From assembly GCA_949282215.1 (NCBI GenBank), contig CASDPF010000003.1, forward strand, positions 1 to 64,000: DNA of 64,000 nucleotides, written 5' to 3'. Each line of letters begins with the position of its first letter. Within the stretch, counting starts at the first letter, position 1. Below the pieces are notes generated by a model. That model was not told the DNA's origin. It saw only the letters and a program-made list of their open reading frames with translations, and made no database searches. This stretch comes from an uncultured bacterium (GTDB taxonomy: Bacteria > Cyanobacteriota > Vampirovibrionia > Gastranaerophilales > Gastranaerophilaceae). Shown piece after piece: positions 14,938 to 63,705 of the stretch. A program made the position numbers and the translations under genes.

Positions 14938-15185
14938 TGAGTCAATCTGAAGTTTTAAAAAAAGAACTACTTTTAAGGCTAGGCAATAATATTCGTGATT
15001 TAAGAATGCAGCAAGGTGTATCTCAGGAGGAGCTTGCTTTTAAAATTGATTCAGCAAGAAATTTTATAAGCTGTATTGAACGAGCAGAAAAATCCCCCAC
15101 TATATTTACTTTGTTTCGTATAGCGAGGGCATTAAATGTAAAGTTGGAAATTCTTGTTAAAGATATTGATAAATTTACCCATTAA
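14937..15185 (+). CDS. XRE-family HTH regulator, divergent to a prepilin
   Basis: An 82-residue Cro/C1-type protein with LGNNIRDLRMQQGVSQEELA and SARNFISCIERAEKSPTIFT as the helix-turn-helix, followed by ALNVKLEILV. The start codon lies inside one of two GGTGGTA-type palindromes, and only an AGGTGG precedes it, so the mRNA leader must be very short. It probably represses itself and the divergent prepilin. It overlaps the end of the convergent poly-G prepilin by 4 bases. Confidence 0.85.
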   Translation: MSQSEVLKKELLLRLGNNIRDLRMQQGVSQEELAFKIDSARNFISCIERAEKSPTIFTLFRIARALNVKLEILVKDIDKFTH

Positions 15186-15943: not shown

Positions 15944-15989
15944 GCCCCCCCCCCCCCATCTGAGAGCTTGTCATATCTTGTGTTTTCAC
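15939..15989 (-). CDS. Poly-G leader ORF (locus D)
   Basis: The GTG start at 15989 is preceded by GGAGG with a 6-base gap. The 16 codons read MKTQDMTSSQMGGGGQ and end in TAA. The run of 13 G supplies four Gly codons and the last base of Met. The ORF gives the downstream prepilin its only credible start when the tract loses one G. Confidence 0.6.
   Translation of the reverse strand: MKTQDMTSSQMGGGGQ
15945..15957 (-). repeat. Poly-G tract, 13 bases (locus D)
   Basis: It is written as 13 C on the plus strand. Runs of this length slip readily during replication. 12 or 15 G would join the leader to the prepilin. Confidence 0.85.
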
Positions 15990-27901: not shown

Positions 27902-27952
27902 ATGCAAAAAACGCTAATAGATAGAATTTCGGGGGGGGGGGCTGCCAACTAA
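27902..27952 (+). CDS. Poly-G leader ORF (locus A)
   Basis: ATG follows GAGGAGG at good spacing. The 16 codons read MQKTLIDRISGGGAAN and stop at TAA. Loci at 52997 and 62775 encode the same length and pattern (MQ...ISGGGAA-x-stop) with the G tract exactly 29 bases after the A of ATG. This argues that the ORF is translated. The product is too short to be a protein in its own right, so I infer a regulatory leader peptide. Confidence 0.6.
   Translation: MQKTLIDRISGGGAAN
27931..27941 (+). repeat. Poly-G tract, 11 bases (locus A)
   Basis: An uninterrupted run of 11 G inside the leader ORF. With 12 G the leader would extend to TGA at 28039-28041, just before the prepilin start; with 10 G it ends quickly at TAG. 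Confidence 0.88.
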
Positions 27953-28085
27953 CAGTTAGGACAAGCATTTCCGACTTAGACCTCCGATGTAAAGAAAAGA
28001 GCAGAAAAGCAAGCCGTGCCAAAAGACACGGTAATTTCTGATGCAAAATTTTTGAAATGAGATATTGTAAATATAAAAACGGAGG
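27945..28085 (+). promoter_or_regulatory. Structured leader RNA of locus A with anti-Shine-Dalgarno
   Basis: Three parts recur in loci B and C. A hairpin AACT-AAC-AGTT (27947-27957) contains the leader stop codon. CCTCCG (27981-27986) can pair with CGGAGG (28080-28085), the prepilin Shine-Dalgarno. Hairpin CCGTG/CACGG lies at 28014-28031. I infer that the prepilin Shine-Dalgarno is sequestered unless ribosomes traverse CCTCCG. I do not recognise the RNA as a known riboswitch. Confidence 0.5.
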
Positions 28086-28089
28086 ACTT

Positions 28090-28758
28090 ATGAAAAAGAA
28101 AAATGCTTTTACCTTAGCAGAAGTGTTAATAACATTAGGAATAATTGGAATAGTCGCAGCGATGACATTGCCAAGTTTAGTTAATAAGTATCAAAAAACA
28201 GTATTTGTTAATCAAATTAGGACAACAAATACTATATTACAAGAAGCAATGTCTATGGCTGTTGCTGATTATGGTGAAGTTAGGGATTGGGATTTTGGTA
28301 ATCAGGTAGGAACGCATGATGCTACTATTGTTGCTTCAAAATATTTTGTTCCGTATTTAAAAAAAATAAAAGAAGCGGGGTATTGTAAGAAAAATCTACA
28401 AACAGGTAATGTTGATAAAACTTCCTACTGTATAACACTTGCTAATGGTATAAATATAAGATTCATGCTAGATGGTGCGTTTGGAGAAGTTCAGTCTAGT
28501 CTATATCTAATATGTTCTACTAAGAACGATCATGGAGCTTTATCTTTATCTGAATTAGGACGTAATTATTCAAGAACAGATTTTATTTTTAAGGTAAATA
28601 TGAATTCTACAAAGGGGAATCGTTTAGGATATTTTGATTGGTCTATGGAACATCCTCTATATAATTGCAGTGATAATATTTTGCCAGAAAAAAGACTTCT
28701 GTGTACTGCAAAGATTGTGAAAGACGGTTGGACAATCCGCGATGACTTTCCTTGGTAA
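28090..28758 (+). CDS. Type IV prepilin-like protein behind poly-G leader A
   Basis: The start at 28090 (MKKKNAFTLAEVLITLGIIG) has GGAGG 5 bases upstream. An in-frame ATG at 28057 has no Shine-Dalgarno and would add a polar stretch before the leader. The 222-residue product has the class III signal, FSM-rich globular region, Cys pairs (YCKKNLQTGN, LLCTAKIVK) and the terminal DGWTIRDDFPW. Its translation may depend on the poly-G leader upstream, because the frame at 12 G ends 16 bases before 28057. It has no HTH partner. Confidence 0.9.
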   Translation: MKKKNAFTLAEVLITLGIIGIVAAMTLPSLVNKYQKTVFVNQIRTTNTILQEAMSMAVADYGEVRDWDFGNQVGTHDATIVASKYFVPYLKKIKEAGYCKKNLQTGNVDKTSYCITLANGINIRFMLDGAFGEVQSSLYLICSTKNDHGALSLSELGRNYSRTDFIFKVNMNSTKGNRLGYFDWSMEHPLYNCSDNILPEKRLLCTAKIVKDGWTIRDDFPW

Positions 28759-39499: not shown

Positions 39500-40464
39500 T
39501 AAGGAAAATTATGTTCTGGCTTCAATGCTCCAGAGCTTTCGCACTGCCTATTACGATACTTTCTTGGCTAGTGATTTTGGGATATGGTCTATTGAGTGGC
39601 GGAGATATTTTAAATGGAATTTTAGCTCTTATCGGTATTTCCTTTGCTCATCTTGCAGGTAATATGGCTGATGATTATATTGATTACGGAATCCTTTCAA
39701 AAGATGAAAAACTTATGAATAGTGCTGTTGCTACTAAATGTTGTTTTATTCGTGATGGAAGTATTACTCTTAAAGATTTAGGTAAAATGATAGCGGTATT
39801 CTGTATTATTGCAATTTTAATAGGTGTTCTACTCTTTTTTAGAAGCGGGATGGGTGTATTCTGGTTGATGCTAGTTGGCGGTATTCTTACTTTGACTTAT
39901 GCTAAATTCTCTCTTGTGGGGTTAAGTGAAGTTGTTATTGGTTTGCTTTTCGGACCTTTGATGTTTGAAGGCGTTTGGTATGTGATGAAGGGGAGTTTTT
40001 CTGTAGATGTTTTAATTTTATCTCTTTCTGTTGTTATGTTTACTGTGGCTTTTTTATATATTCATACTCTGCTTGACTTTGATTGCGATAAAATTTCTCA
40101 TAAAAAGACTTTATGCTGCAGAATTAATGATAAAAACAAAGCTTTAATTTTATTTGGGGTATTTGTTGCATTAGGTTATCTTTTCGCCGTTTTGTTTGGA
40201 ATTAAAATTTCTAACTATTTGGTATTTTTATCATTTTTAACTATACCTTTTGCTTGTTATATTTATAAGCAAATGAAAAGATATAATAATAACCAAGATT
40301 TTATGCCTGAAATAAGGTGGTGGAATTACCCTCTTGATAACTGGGAGGCAGTTAAGCAAGAGGGTACGGAAGCCTTTTATTTTATCTTGTTTCAAGCAAG
40401 AAATCTTATGCTGTGGTTCTGTGTTCTTGTTGTGGTGGCTATGATTTTAAATCATAATCTATAA
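39496..40464 (+). CDS. UbiA-family prenyltransferase-like membrane protein
   Basis: A 322-residue protein with about eight hydrophobic helices. The two aspartate-rich motifs of the UbiA superfamily are present: NMADDYIDYG (NxxxDxxxD-like) and LDFDCDKISHKKT. Members transfer prenyl chains onto aromatic rings, for example in menaquinone synthesis (MenA-like). The substrate here is not clear, and the context (sugar genes, prepilin) does not help. It overlaps the convergent poly-G prepilin by 13 bases. Confidence 0.82.
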   Translation: MIRKIMFWLQCSRAFALPITILSWLVILGYGLLSGGDILNGILALIGISFAHLAGNMADDYIDYGILSKDEKLMNSAVATKCCFIRDGSITLKDLGKMIAVFCIIAILIGVLLFFRSGMGVFWLMLVGGILTLTYAKFSLVGLSEVVIGLLFGPLMFEGVWYVMKGSFSVDVLILSLSVVMFTVAFLYIHTLLDFDCDKISHKKTLCCRINDKNKALILFGVFVALGYLFAVLFGIKISNYLVFLSFLTIPFACYIYKQMKRYNNNQDFMPEIRWWNYPLDNWEAVKQEGTEAFYFILFQARNLMLWFCVLVVVAMILNHNL

Positions 40465-41147
40465 GGATAATCATTTTTGAATTCAAAATTATCATAATCC
40501 ATCAGAAGTGGAGTGCAGTCTGTAGAATATCTTTTGCAGTTATCAAGAGCTTTTGCTCTTGTATTAGCTTTTCCAGCTTGGATATCATAGGCTCTTAATT
40601 TGCCGTTCTTGCAATGTAAAAATTTAAATATATCTCTGCCATCTAAGTTTGGCTTTTTATCTCCATTGGTATCAAATATTAAGTCTACGCAAGTTCCGTT
40701 CCATAAATATAATACTGAACCGTCAGTGAATGTCAGAGCAAGAGCTTCTCTGTTTTGCCCTGTTATTTTTCTTCTTTTTGCACTAATAATTTTGAAATAA
40801 TTATTGTCAAAATAAGTATGATAATATTTTTCAGCTCTTTCTACATTTGATACTTCGCCATTGTTATCAACTTCCCAGTTTTTCATTTCTCCGAAATCAG
40901 CTTCAGCATATAAAATTGCTTGTTGCATTGTGCTGTAAAACTTCTTTAATCTTGCACTCACTTCCTTACTTTTGTAATTCCCGATTAATGTCGGTAAAGT
41001 CATTGCTGCTATAATCCCGATAATGCCAAGAGTAATCAGTACTTCTGCCAGAGTAAAAGCTTCCGTAATGGAAAAAGGGTTTTGTGCCTTGAGCTTTTCT
41101 TTAAATTTTAAACAATTCCATATCTGGCCTTTATCTACAGAGTGAAA
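40452..41147 (-). CDS. Phase-variable prepilin body, out of frame as sequenced (OFF)
   Basis: The frame encodes NPFSITEAFTLAEVLITLGI, a 201-residue mature pilin domain, FDTNGDKKPNLDGRDIFKFL and a DYPYRL end. Going upstream from AFTLAEV it stays open through the whole 90-base spacer and the G tract but contains no ATG, GTG or TTG. The only ribosome site is the GGAGG and ATG 41194 of the leader. With 10 G the leader stops at TAG; with 11 G it is continuous with this frame. The product would then be a prepilin carrying 46 residues before FTLAEV. An internal Met after the signal (MTLPTL) could not give an exported pilin. Confidence 0.8.
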   Translation of the reverse strand, partial: FHSVDKGQIWNCLKFKEKLKAQNPFSITEAFTLAEVLITLGIIGIIAAMTLPTLIGNYKSKEVSARLKKFYSTMQQAILYAEADFGEMKNWEVDNNGEVSNVERAEKYYHTYFDNNYFKIISAKRRKITGQNREALALTFTDGSVLYLWNGTCVDLIFDTNGDKKPNLDGRDIFKFLHCKNGKLRAYDIQAGKANTRAKALDNCKRYSTDCTPLLMDYDNFEFKNDYPYRL

Positions 41148-41194
41148 GCCCCCCCCCCTTTCTCCAAGATTGAAGCTATAATTGAGTTTTTCAT
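41135..41194 (-). CDS. Poly-G leader ORF (locus E)
   Basis: ATG 41194 is preceded by AAGGAGG with good spacing. The 19 codons read MKNSIIASILEKGGGAFTL and end in TAG. The GGGAFTL end imitates the prepilin cleavage motif. GCTTTCACTCTG here and GCTTTTACTCTG in the true prepilin start are 89 bases apart, which suggests an old duplication. A +1 change in the tract joins this ORF to the prepilin. Confidence 0.65.
   Translation of the reverse strand: MKNSIIASILEKGGGAFTL
41149..41158 (-). repeat. Poly-G tract, 10 bases (locus E)
   Basis: It is written as 10 C on the plus strand. 11 or 8 G would put leader and prepilin in one frame with no intervening stop. Confidence 0.88.
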
Positions 41195-41214
41195 TGTTAC
41201 CTCCTTTTTTATAT

Positions 41215-41243
41215 AGTATAAATTATTTTTATTTGTATTGCAA
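41215..41243 (-). promoter_or_regulatory. Sigma70-type promoter of locus E
   Basis: TTGCAA (41243-41238), 17 bases, then TATACT (41220-41215), followed by AAGGAGG and ATG 41194. The start of transcription falls about 14 bases before the ATG. Confidence 0.7.
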
Positions 41244-52996: not shown

Positions 52997-53047
52997 ATGC
53001 AAAACTCACTGATAATCGTAATTTCGGGGGGGGGGGCTGCCAACTAA
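52997..53047 (+). CDS. Poly-G leader ORF (locus B)
   Basis: ATG 52997 follows AAAAGGAG. The 16 codons read MQNSLIIVISGGGAAN and stop at TAA, the same length and pattern as locus A. The middle residues differ, but the ISGGGAAN end and stop are the same. Confidence 0.6.
   Translation: MQNSLIIVISGGGAAN
53026..53036 (+). repeat. Poly-G tract, 11 bases (locus B)
   Basis: It begins 29 bases after the A of the leader ATG, as in loci A and C. 12 G would extend the leader to TGA at 53098-53100, beyond the CCTCCG element. Confidence 0.88.
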
Positions 53048-53177
53048 CAGTTAGGCCAAGCATTTCCGACTTAGACCTCCGATTTGACGAAAAGCACTGA
53101 AAATAAAGCCGTGCCAATAGACACGGTGATTTTTGGTGTGAAAAATGTTAAAATGAAAAATGGTATACAAACGGAGG
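53040..53177 (+). promoter_or_regulatory. Structured leader RNA of locus B with anti-Shine-Dalgarno
   Basis: The same layout as locus A. The stretch from the G tract through CCTCCG (53076-53081) is almost identical. Hairpin CCGTG/CACGG is at 53109-53126. CCTCCG can pair with CGGAGG (53172-53177) before the prepilin. Confidence 0.5.
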
Positions 53178-53181
53178 ATTT

Positions 53182-53850
53182 ATGAAAAAGAAAAATGCTT
53201 TTACCTTAGCAGAGGTATTAATAACATTAGGAATAATTGGAATAGTGGCTGCAATGACGTTGCCTGTATTAGTTGGTCATTATAAAAAGAAAGAATATAC
53301 TGCAAGATTAAAAAAATTTAATAGTATGATGTCTCAGGCTATTCAGCTTTCAGAAGCCGTTAATGGTGATGCAAAGTATTGGACTCATACTAATGGTGCT
53401 CATGCAGATGAAAATGGCAATGCTGTTTATGATCCAGTTAAGGGACCTAAATATACTTATGAGTTTATAATGAAATATATTGTACCTTATATCAAGTATA
53501 CGCGTATTGAACAATCGGTCATACCTGATTATACAGGTGAAACGATGGTAGCAATATATTTTGCTGATGGTAGCATTGCATATACAAAAAGTGCAGGTTG
53601 TATAGATTTTAATTTAGATGTAAATGGTACCAATAAACCAAATAAAATGGGTTATGATACTTTTACTTTTGTAATTTGTCCTTGGAGTTCATCGTATTAT
53701 TTTGATCATAATTTAAAAAAATGGGGAACACTGTGTGATAATCCTTCTCGAAATGATCGAGAGGCCCTAATTCAAGCTAAAAAATGTCCATCAAGAATAT
53801 TAGAACTTTCTAATTGGGAATTTACGGATGATTATCCGTTTAAATTTTAG
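53182..53850 (+). CDS. Type IV prepilin-like protein behind poly-G leader B
   Basis: A 222-residue prepilin: MKKKNAFTLAEVLITLGIIG with GGAGG 5 bases before the ATG, LDVNGTNKPNKMGYDTFTFV, and the end LSNWEFTDDYPFKF. The first 25 codons are nearly identical in DNA to those at 28090, which suggests recent duplication or gene conversion of leader plus N-terminus, while the globular parts differ. It follows dgkA with its own promoter, has no HTH partner and is followed by a terminator. Confidence 0.92.
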   Translation: MKKKNAFTLAEVLITLGIIGIVAAMTLPVLVGHYKKKEYTARLKKFNSMMSQAIQLSEAVNGDAKYWTHTNGAHADENGNAVYDPVKGPKYTYEFIMKYIVPYIKYTRIEQSVIPDYTGETMVAIYFADGSIAYTKSAGCIDFNLDVNGTNKPNKMGYDTFTFVICPWSSSYYFDHNLKKWGTLCDNPSRNDREALIQAKKCPSRILELSNWEFTDDYPFKF

Positions 53851-62774: not shown

Positions 62775-62825
62775 ATGCAAAACATAGTCGTAACAAGTAT
62801 TTCGGGGGGGGGGGCTGCCTTCTAA
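62775..62825 (+). CDS. Poly-G leader ORF (locus C)
   Basis: The 16 codons read MQNIVVTSISGGGAAF and stop at TAA, with GAGGAGGA upstream. Same spacing of 29 bases from ATG to the tract as in loci A and B. Confidence 0.62.
   Translation: MQNIVVTSISGGGAAF
62804..62814 (+). repeat. Poly-G tract, 11 bases (locus C)
   Basis: With 10 or 13 G the leader reads without a stop into the prepilin at 62944, adding 56 residues; with 12 G it ends at a TAG 19 bases after the tract. Confidence 0.88.
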
Positions 62826-62939
62826 CAGACTAGGAGAGCATTTCTGCGTTATTCCTCTGAAAAATAGTCAGTGTGTGCCGTGCCGATTGTCACGGTATTT
62901 TGTGCTGTTTAAAAATCTATTATTAATAAAATTGGAGGA
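62818..62939 (+). promoter_or_regulatory. Structured leader RNA of locus C with anti-Shine-Dalgarno
   Basis: More diverged than A and B, but with the same parts. A small hairpin TCT-AAC-AGA spans the leader stop. TCCTCTGA (62853-62860) can pair over 8 bases with TTGGAGGA (62932-62939), allowing two G-U pairs. Hairpin CCGTG/CACGG is at 62878-62895 with a changed loop. The pairing is kept although both partners changed. Confidence 0.5.
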
Positions 62940-62943
62940 TAAA

Positions 62944-63705
62944 ATGAAAAAGAATTACGCATTCACATTAGCAGAAGTGCTTATTACACTCGGAATTATT
63001 GGCATTGTCGCAGCTTTAACTCTACCGACATTAATCCAAAGACAACAATTTATGATAGTCCAATCACAGTTAAAAAAAGCAATGAGTGCTCATTCTCAAG
63101 CTATGTTACAAACAAAATATGCTTTAGGCATTGGAAATTTTAGTGAACTTTCAACTGTTTATGATAGTAAGAATAAAGTATATACTTACAGCAAACAATT
63201 ATATGAAGAATATGCTAAAAAGATGAAAGTCGTAGGGAAATGTGAATATAAGATTACTCCCAGAAATTACAATAATTCAAATATTGCTTATGTTGATATT
63301 GGAGGAGAAGAAACACCACACTATTTGGCTCCGGATGGCTCATGTTTTGAAATTATATTAAATTCATCTACTATTGGGGTAACCGTTGATGTAAATGGTT
63401 CAGATAAACGTCCAAATCAGTTGGGACATGATATATTTGTTTTTTATGTAAATAATAAAGATTTCTTAGTTCCAATGAAAGTACAGAAAAATATGACTCA
63501 AGAGGAGCTTGATGAATTGCCAGGGCGTCAACCGGAGGATGATGAAGGCGGTATTACTGCAAATGAATCTGGTATAGAACAGAGCGGATGGCCTTGTACG
63601 GCGAAAAATAACCAAAAAGGAAACGGTATGGGTTGTGCATGGTATGCATTGCAAGATATTTGTCCTGACGACCCGACAAAAAAATATTGGCAGTGTTTGC
63701 CTTAA
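62944..63705 (+). CDS. Type IV prepilin-like protein behind poly-G leader C
   Basis: The start at 62944 (MKKNYAFTLAEVLITLGIIG) has TTGGAGG upstream. The frame stays open further upstream through the leader RNA and would join the leader ORF at 10 G. The 253-residue product has VDVNGSDKRPNQLGHDIFVF and a longer C-terminal part with Cys pairs (WPCTAKNNQKGNGMGCAWYA). It ends KYWQCLP rather than DDYP, like the prepilin at 8407 in lacking that end. No HTH partner. Confidence 0.9.
   Translation: MKKNYAFTLAEVLITLGIIGIVAALTLPTLIQRQQFMIVQSQLKKAMSAHSQAMLQTKYALGIGNFSELSTVYDSKNKVYTYSKQLYEEYAKKMKVVGKCEYKITPRNYNNSNIAYVDIGGEETPHYLAPDGSCFEIILNSSTIGVTVDVNGSDKRPNQLGHDIFVFYVNNKDFLVPMKVQKNMTQEELDELPGRQPEDDEGGITANESGIEQSGWPCTAKNNQKGNGMGCAWYALQDICPDDPTKKYWQCLP

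Follow-up and report, generated by a model that had tools for sequence, protein, structure and literature searches.

A leader-borne G tract sets the reading frame of a prepilin gene in an uncultured member of the Gastranaerophilales, suggesting mostly-OFF phase variation

In a 64,000-nt stretch of DNA (the window) from a Gastranaerophilales metagenome-assembled genome (MAG; 2.19 Mb, 45 contigs), we found a prepilin gene, locus E (40452-41194, minus strand), whose product, it appears, can be made only if a G tract in an upstream leader changes register. A preliminary description of this DNA had proposed as much, and the locus and about 100 loci of the same layout in the genus support it. Locus E is quite probably a phase-variable prepilin gene that would switch by slipped-strand mispairing at its leader-borne poly-G and would mostly be OFF. 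This reading builds on the anatomy and frames of the locus, on a pattern that recurs across the genus, and on one-G differences between relatives that change the frame; from these we infer reversible switching within populations, processing by a prepilin peptidase, and a function at the cell surface.

We re-read the sequence of locus E and computed its translations (all features on the minus strand). The leader starts at ATG 41194, 5 nt downstream of AAGGAGG (Shine-Dalgarno AGGAGG, 41200-41205), and as assembled it is an ORF of 19 codons (41135-41194) that, as previously described, ends in TAG. Its tract, the presumed switch, consists of exactly 10 G (41158-41149); the leader product at this length is MKNSIIASILEKGGGAFTL*, with the TAG 14 nt past the tract. 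The spacer that follows (41061-41148) measures 88 nt and not the 90 bases first reported, contains neither a stop nor a start codon in the prepilin frame, and leads into the cleavage motif AFTLAEVLITLG, from which the prepilin-like protein (40452-41060) runs without a start of its own. Tract length sets the frame of the product. With 11 G (or 8 or 14), leader, spacer and prepilin join, as had been claimed, into a single stop-free ORF, computed at 247 aa, in which 46 residues precede the cleavage site of A|FTLAEV, the -1 Ala being the last of them; 9 or 12 G, like the assembled 10, lead to an early stop (20-21 aa at 9 or 12 G), such that both other registers end within 21 codons.

The prepilin frame continues upstream of AFTLAEV for 54 stop-free codons (to 41222), among which we, like the preliminary description, found no ATG, GTG or TTG. 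Near-cognate codons there are limited to ATT 41069, ATA 41123 and ATA 41219, none of which is preceded by a Shine-Dalgarno sequence, and the first start codon within the protein, ATG 41003, comes 19 codons in. Ribosomes would be expected to start at ATG 41194 and, with 10 G, to stop at the TAG without making pilin (OFF). A daughter cell with 11 G would read leader, spacer and prepilin as one protein (ON), whose 46-residue leader the cell's prepilin peptidase would presumably remove. Upstream of the leader lies a promoter-like sequence, TTGCAA-17-TATACT (41215-41243), which had been called strong; it matches the consensus at 9 of 12 positions, and since the region holds 4 such sites against 4.0 in shuffles, this promoter is plausible rather than significant. 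The gene context is ordinary, with a UbiA-family prenyltransferase gene downstream and a divergent diaminopimelate decarboxylase gene (lysA) upstream. We also observed that the end of the 10-G leader (GGGAFTL*, 41148-41135) echoes the AFTL of the prepilin motif (41060-41046; GCTTTCACTCTG versus GCTTTTACTCTG), and it may be that the spacer arose when sequence was duplicated or inserted there.

Queried from the motif onward, the locus E protein matched PF20318 (DUF6613) above the cut-off and pilin or pseudopilin models only below threshold; prepilins of sister loci pass the PF07963 cut-off instead. Direct reading of the locus E prepilin showed a cleavage/methylation motif, A|FTLAEVLITLGIIGIIAAMT, followed by a hydrophobic stretch. 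Homologs occur in all 13 congeneric genomes, the best matches being only about 50% identical. A PDB sequence search gave no match, viral contigs searched with the ON-form protein held no relative, and an Rfam search of the whole window matched no family. Based on PF07963, the source genome encodes at least 150 prepilins and the twelve other congeneric genomes 4-129, and the number of tracts follows the number of prepilins (Spearman 0.92 over the 13 genomes). One prepilin peptidase (a single PF01478 match above the cut-off) was detected beside these 150 or more prepilin genes in 2.2 Mb.

G tracts are far too frequent in this DNA to be accidental matches of a random sequence: runs of 9 G give 16 overlapping matches (5 tracts) in the window against 0.01 expected. 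The source genome holds 91 tracts of at least 8 G, 88 of them with 9 or more, and the modal length is 11 G. About 80 of the 91 lie between a leader with Shine-Dalgarno and ATG and a prepilin, in two classes. In the fused class (19 loci), the prepilin lacks its own start, as at locus E; in the own-start class (61 loci), a leader MQK..IDRIS, G11 and a conserved spacer precede a prepilin with its own Shine-Dalgarno and ATG. The window contains a second locus of the fused type on the minus strand, with a 13-G tract (15945-15957), a GTG at about 15989 and a stop at 15182, in which fusion occurs at one G fewer. It also contains three own-start loci on the plus strand: 27902-28758 (leader ATG 27902, G11 27931-27941, a spacer with CCTCCGA, prepilin 28090-28758), 52997-53850 (leader ATG 52997, G11 53026-53036, prepilin 53182-53850) and 62775-63705 (leader ATG 62775, G11 62804-62814, prepilin 62944-63705).

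The preliminary description had argued that an open spacer is unlikely unless translated. This argument is weak at locus E alone, where shuffles gave P of about 0.11 for an open 88-nt spacer, and strong genus-wide: in five congeneric genomes, prepilins without their own start have a frame that stays open as far back as the tract in 102 of 105 loci, whereas shuffled spacers would give about 27. A product of open-spacer probabilities (10^-94) was discarded in favor of this comparison because the class is itself defined by openness, which makes the product circular. Both OFF registers of the fused class run into a stop soon after the tract (median 12 nt, compared with 33 in shuffles). The own-start class served as an internal control, and there the register of the prepilin relative to that of the leader varies widely (30/17/14) and is blocked in most cases. 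Some loci of G012 (e.g., L185, L298 and L316) have very long ON-register spacers with repeat-like peptides (PLPPFTKGG, CHPEFISGS), which look like repeat insertions that kept the frame.

As assembled, 7 of the 102 fused loci (about 7%) are ON, 79 have one G too many and need -1, and 16 have one too few and need +1; after similar loci were collapsed (n=63), the counts were 4, 46 and 13. Locus E belongs to the +1-needing minority, and the gain of one G suggested earlier as the switch is particular to this locus, as most relatives need -1. The records compared are metagenome assemblies with one genome per species, and every tract length is a consensus.

Relatives differ in tract length in ways that change the frame, the differences coming from sister loci and not from locus E. 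The orthologs L200 (G11, OFF) and L293 (G12, ON) come from two species; apart from the extra G, about 330 nt of their DNA align collinearly with hardly a difference. The paralogs L245 (G11, OFF) and L246 (G10, ON) have a common leader and spacer, and L209 (G13) and L285 (G14) have matching flanks. Among the closest pairs (5-9 mismatches of 122), 50% differ in frame, as do about 20% of more distant pairs, so that register turnover is fast relative to substitution. Locus E offers no such comparison, since it lacks a close ortholog: in 80 relatives (Candidatus Gastranaerophilales MAGs, including Ca. Scatousia) a prepilin is mostly absent from the lysA flank.

The own-start class appears to use a second design. 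CCTCC is nearly invariant in 57 aligned own-start spacers, including divergent members with a different open register, and CCTCC(GA) is complementary to the GGAGG (CGGAGG) Shine-Dalgarno of the downstream prepilin. In most own-start loci the only register that reads past CCTCC is that of 12 G, and in 60 of the 61 loci the assembled register terminates ahead of CCTCC. An ON-register ribosome would open the masked Shine-Dalgarno of the prepilin, which suggests a phase-variable translational attenuator. A putative hairpin (CCGTGCC..GACACGG) followed by Ts could act as an attenuator instead or in addition.

Across the order, 115 of the 286 genomes surveyed, belonging to 25 of 50 genera, held the pattern of Shine-Dalgarno, ATG, leader and G9, and 52 of the 286 held its poly-C version; these counts are pattern matches, with the prepilin behind the pattern confirmed only in fetched loci. 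All but stray matches of the G9 pattern fall in one family, and a reversed-pattern control was near zero. The poly-C design of leader, switch and prepilin also occurs just upstream of lysA in three relatives (L347, L348 and L360, minus strand). Among loci of other genera, the G type (n=16) comprised 3 ON, 6 needing -1 and 7 needing +1, and the C type (n=16) 2, 2 and 12. A pattern for one of the two classes of loci had no match in the named genome collection, from which records of the source genome or its near relatives were perhaps left out.

Other genes carry similar tracts. A Stealth-domain gene (PF11380, PF17101, PF17103; L053:1009-1965) lies behind the same leader-G11 design, with L228 similar, and in L033, L151, L209, L285, L313 and L325 G tracts lie within other genes. 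Judged by motifs, some of these are apparently glycosyltransferase- or deacetylase-like, with surface-glycan functions; such glycan-type and Stealth-domain genes are typical phase-variable (contingency) gene types.

The main alternative to switching in the DNA is programmed transcriptional slippage, in which the DNA tract would be essentially fixed and RNA polymerase would add or drop a G in some of the transcripts, so that every cell would steadily make many pilins at a low level. We consider this improbable, though better placed than any other rival. It would account for the strongly biased assembled register (79 of 102 needing -1), for tract lengths centered on 11 G (144 of 232 leader-linked tracts), and for a partly conserved sum of leader and tract (32+13, 33+12, 34+11 and 35+10, each 45), a feature that speaks against phase variation insofar as it is also expected of a conserved slippage element; realignment moreover tolerates a shift in either direction (PMC3711429). 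However, ON alleles (7 of 102 in the genus, 3 of 16 G-type and 2 of 16 C-type loci in other genera) and one-G differences between orthologs and paralogs are present in the DNA itself, register turnover among close copies is fast, the realignment sites on record mostly consist of A/T runs (PMC3711429), and tracts also interrupt surface-glycan genes in the manner of contingency loci. We therefore favor a DNA-level change, which the present data separate from transcriptional slippage only in part. A register so far from random is a point against free switching: with only 7 of 102 loci ON, fewer than free switching would give, selection for OFF must be assumed. The OFF excess, the bias to one register and the partly conserved length may thus reflect such selection, or possibly transcriptional slippage added to phase variation.

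Programmed ribosomal frameshifting on the G run is very unlikely. A run of G may be slippery, and the tract does have an open extension behind it, but the direction of the required shift is mixed (79 loci -1, 16 +1 and 7 none in the genus; 6/7/3 for G and 2/12/2 for C in other genera), and the same design is also built with poly-C. A conserved direction is typically the mark of such frameshifting (PMC3711429), and a required shift that is lineage-specific argues against one programmed event. Even less credible is an assembly error, by which tracts that are truly ON would have been miscounted by one G. Homopolymers are error-prone and the records are metagenome assemblies, yet the error would have to run in opposite directions, mostly one G too many in fused and one too few in own-start loci, although both classes occur in the same genome with the same tract lengths; stops directly past the tract in OFF registers would also be pointless. 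The poorest candidate is a dead gene that lost its start, which would fit the missing in-frame start codon and the OFF assembly but not an intact coding sequence up to the stop, intact homologs, a leader that keeps its Shine-Dalgarno, and a frame that is open to the tract in 102 of the 105 loci of this kind.

About 80 prepilins are wired to tracts, and the majority of these are assembled OFF. If phase variation is indeed at work, any one cell would then make only a few of its many pilins, and which ones it makes would change. A wider proposal, to which we give somewhat less than an even chance, is that much of the Gastranaerophilaceae uses stochastic pilin choice, with tens of prepilins per genome each kept OFF behind a leader poly-G or poly-C switch; one version would act on RNA, where only the ON-register leader would carry a ribosome through the conserved CCTCC that would otherwise mask the pilin Shine-Dalgarno. 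Most of what is known about phase variation comes from cultured pathogens; here, uncultured animal-gut relatives of cyanobacteria seem to have at least 150 prepilin genes and to gate about 80 of them by homopolymers. If so, cell-to-cell surface diversity would be central to the biology of this lineage. Annotation pipelines are likely to call such prepilins truncated or to miss their true start, and the repertoire is therefore easily overlooked. The prediction can be checked by counting tract lengths in existing metagenome reads.

G-tract phase variation of surface appendages is already known from Bifidobacterium (PMC9187656) and from Campylobacter and Neisseria loci (PMC6321876, PMC5953494). 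We found no description of poly-G pilus phase variation in Gastranaerophilales/Melainabacteria in the literature searched, nor does that literature seem to cover a system of this scale or leader design, or this clade. The closest parallel is Bifidobacterium breve, whose sortase-dependent pilus clusters undergo G-tract replication slippage: this is likewise a gut commensal in which a coding-region G tract gates pilus expression and the reference state is out of frame, accompanied by a population of tract lengths, with ON requiring an indel (PMC9187656). B. breve has two sortase pili in one strain with the tract inside the pilus gene (PMC9187656), whereas here there are type IV-like prepilins, about 80 per genome, with the tract in a dedicated leader and a second class in which the switch acts on a gene with its own start. 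The contingency genes (phasome) of Campylobacter resemble the present loci in being poly-G, driven by simple sequence repeats (SSRs), surface-related and numerous in each genome. Draft genomes of C. jejuni have a median of about 20 loci, with 81 in one isolate, and in that set the modal length is 9 G and the ON share is near neutral drift (PMC6321876). Here, in contrast, there are 88 tracts of 9 or more G with a mode of 11, an ON share of about 7% in the fused class, and one dominant gene family. In Neisseria, mostly different genes each carry their own intragenic or promoter tract, unlike the single paralogous pilin family found here behind a common leader design. SSR phase variation in that genus is nonetheless similar in switching surface and pilus-related genes by homopolymers (PMC5084427, PMC5953494). 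Finally, programmed transcriptional realignment also places a homopolymer between two registers of one product, but it does so in fixed DNA and mostly in A/T runs (PMC3711429), whereas in the loci described here the DNA length and the register both vary between close relatives.
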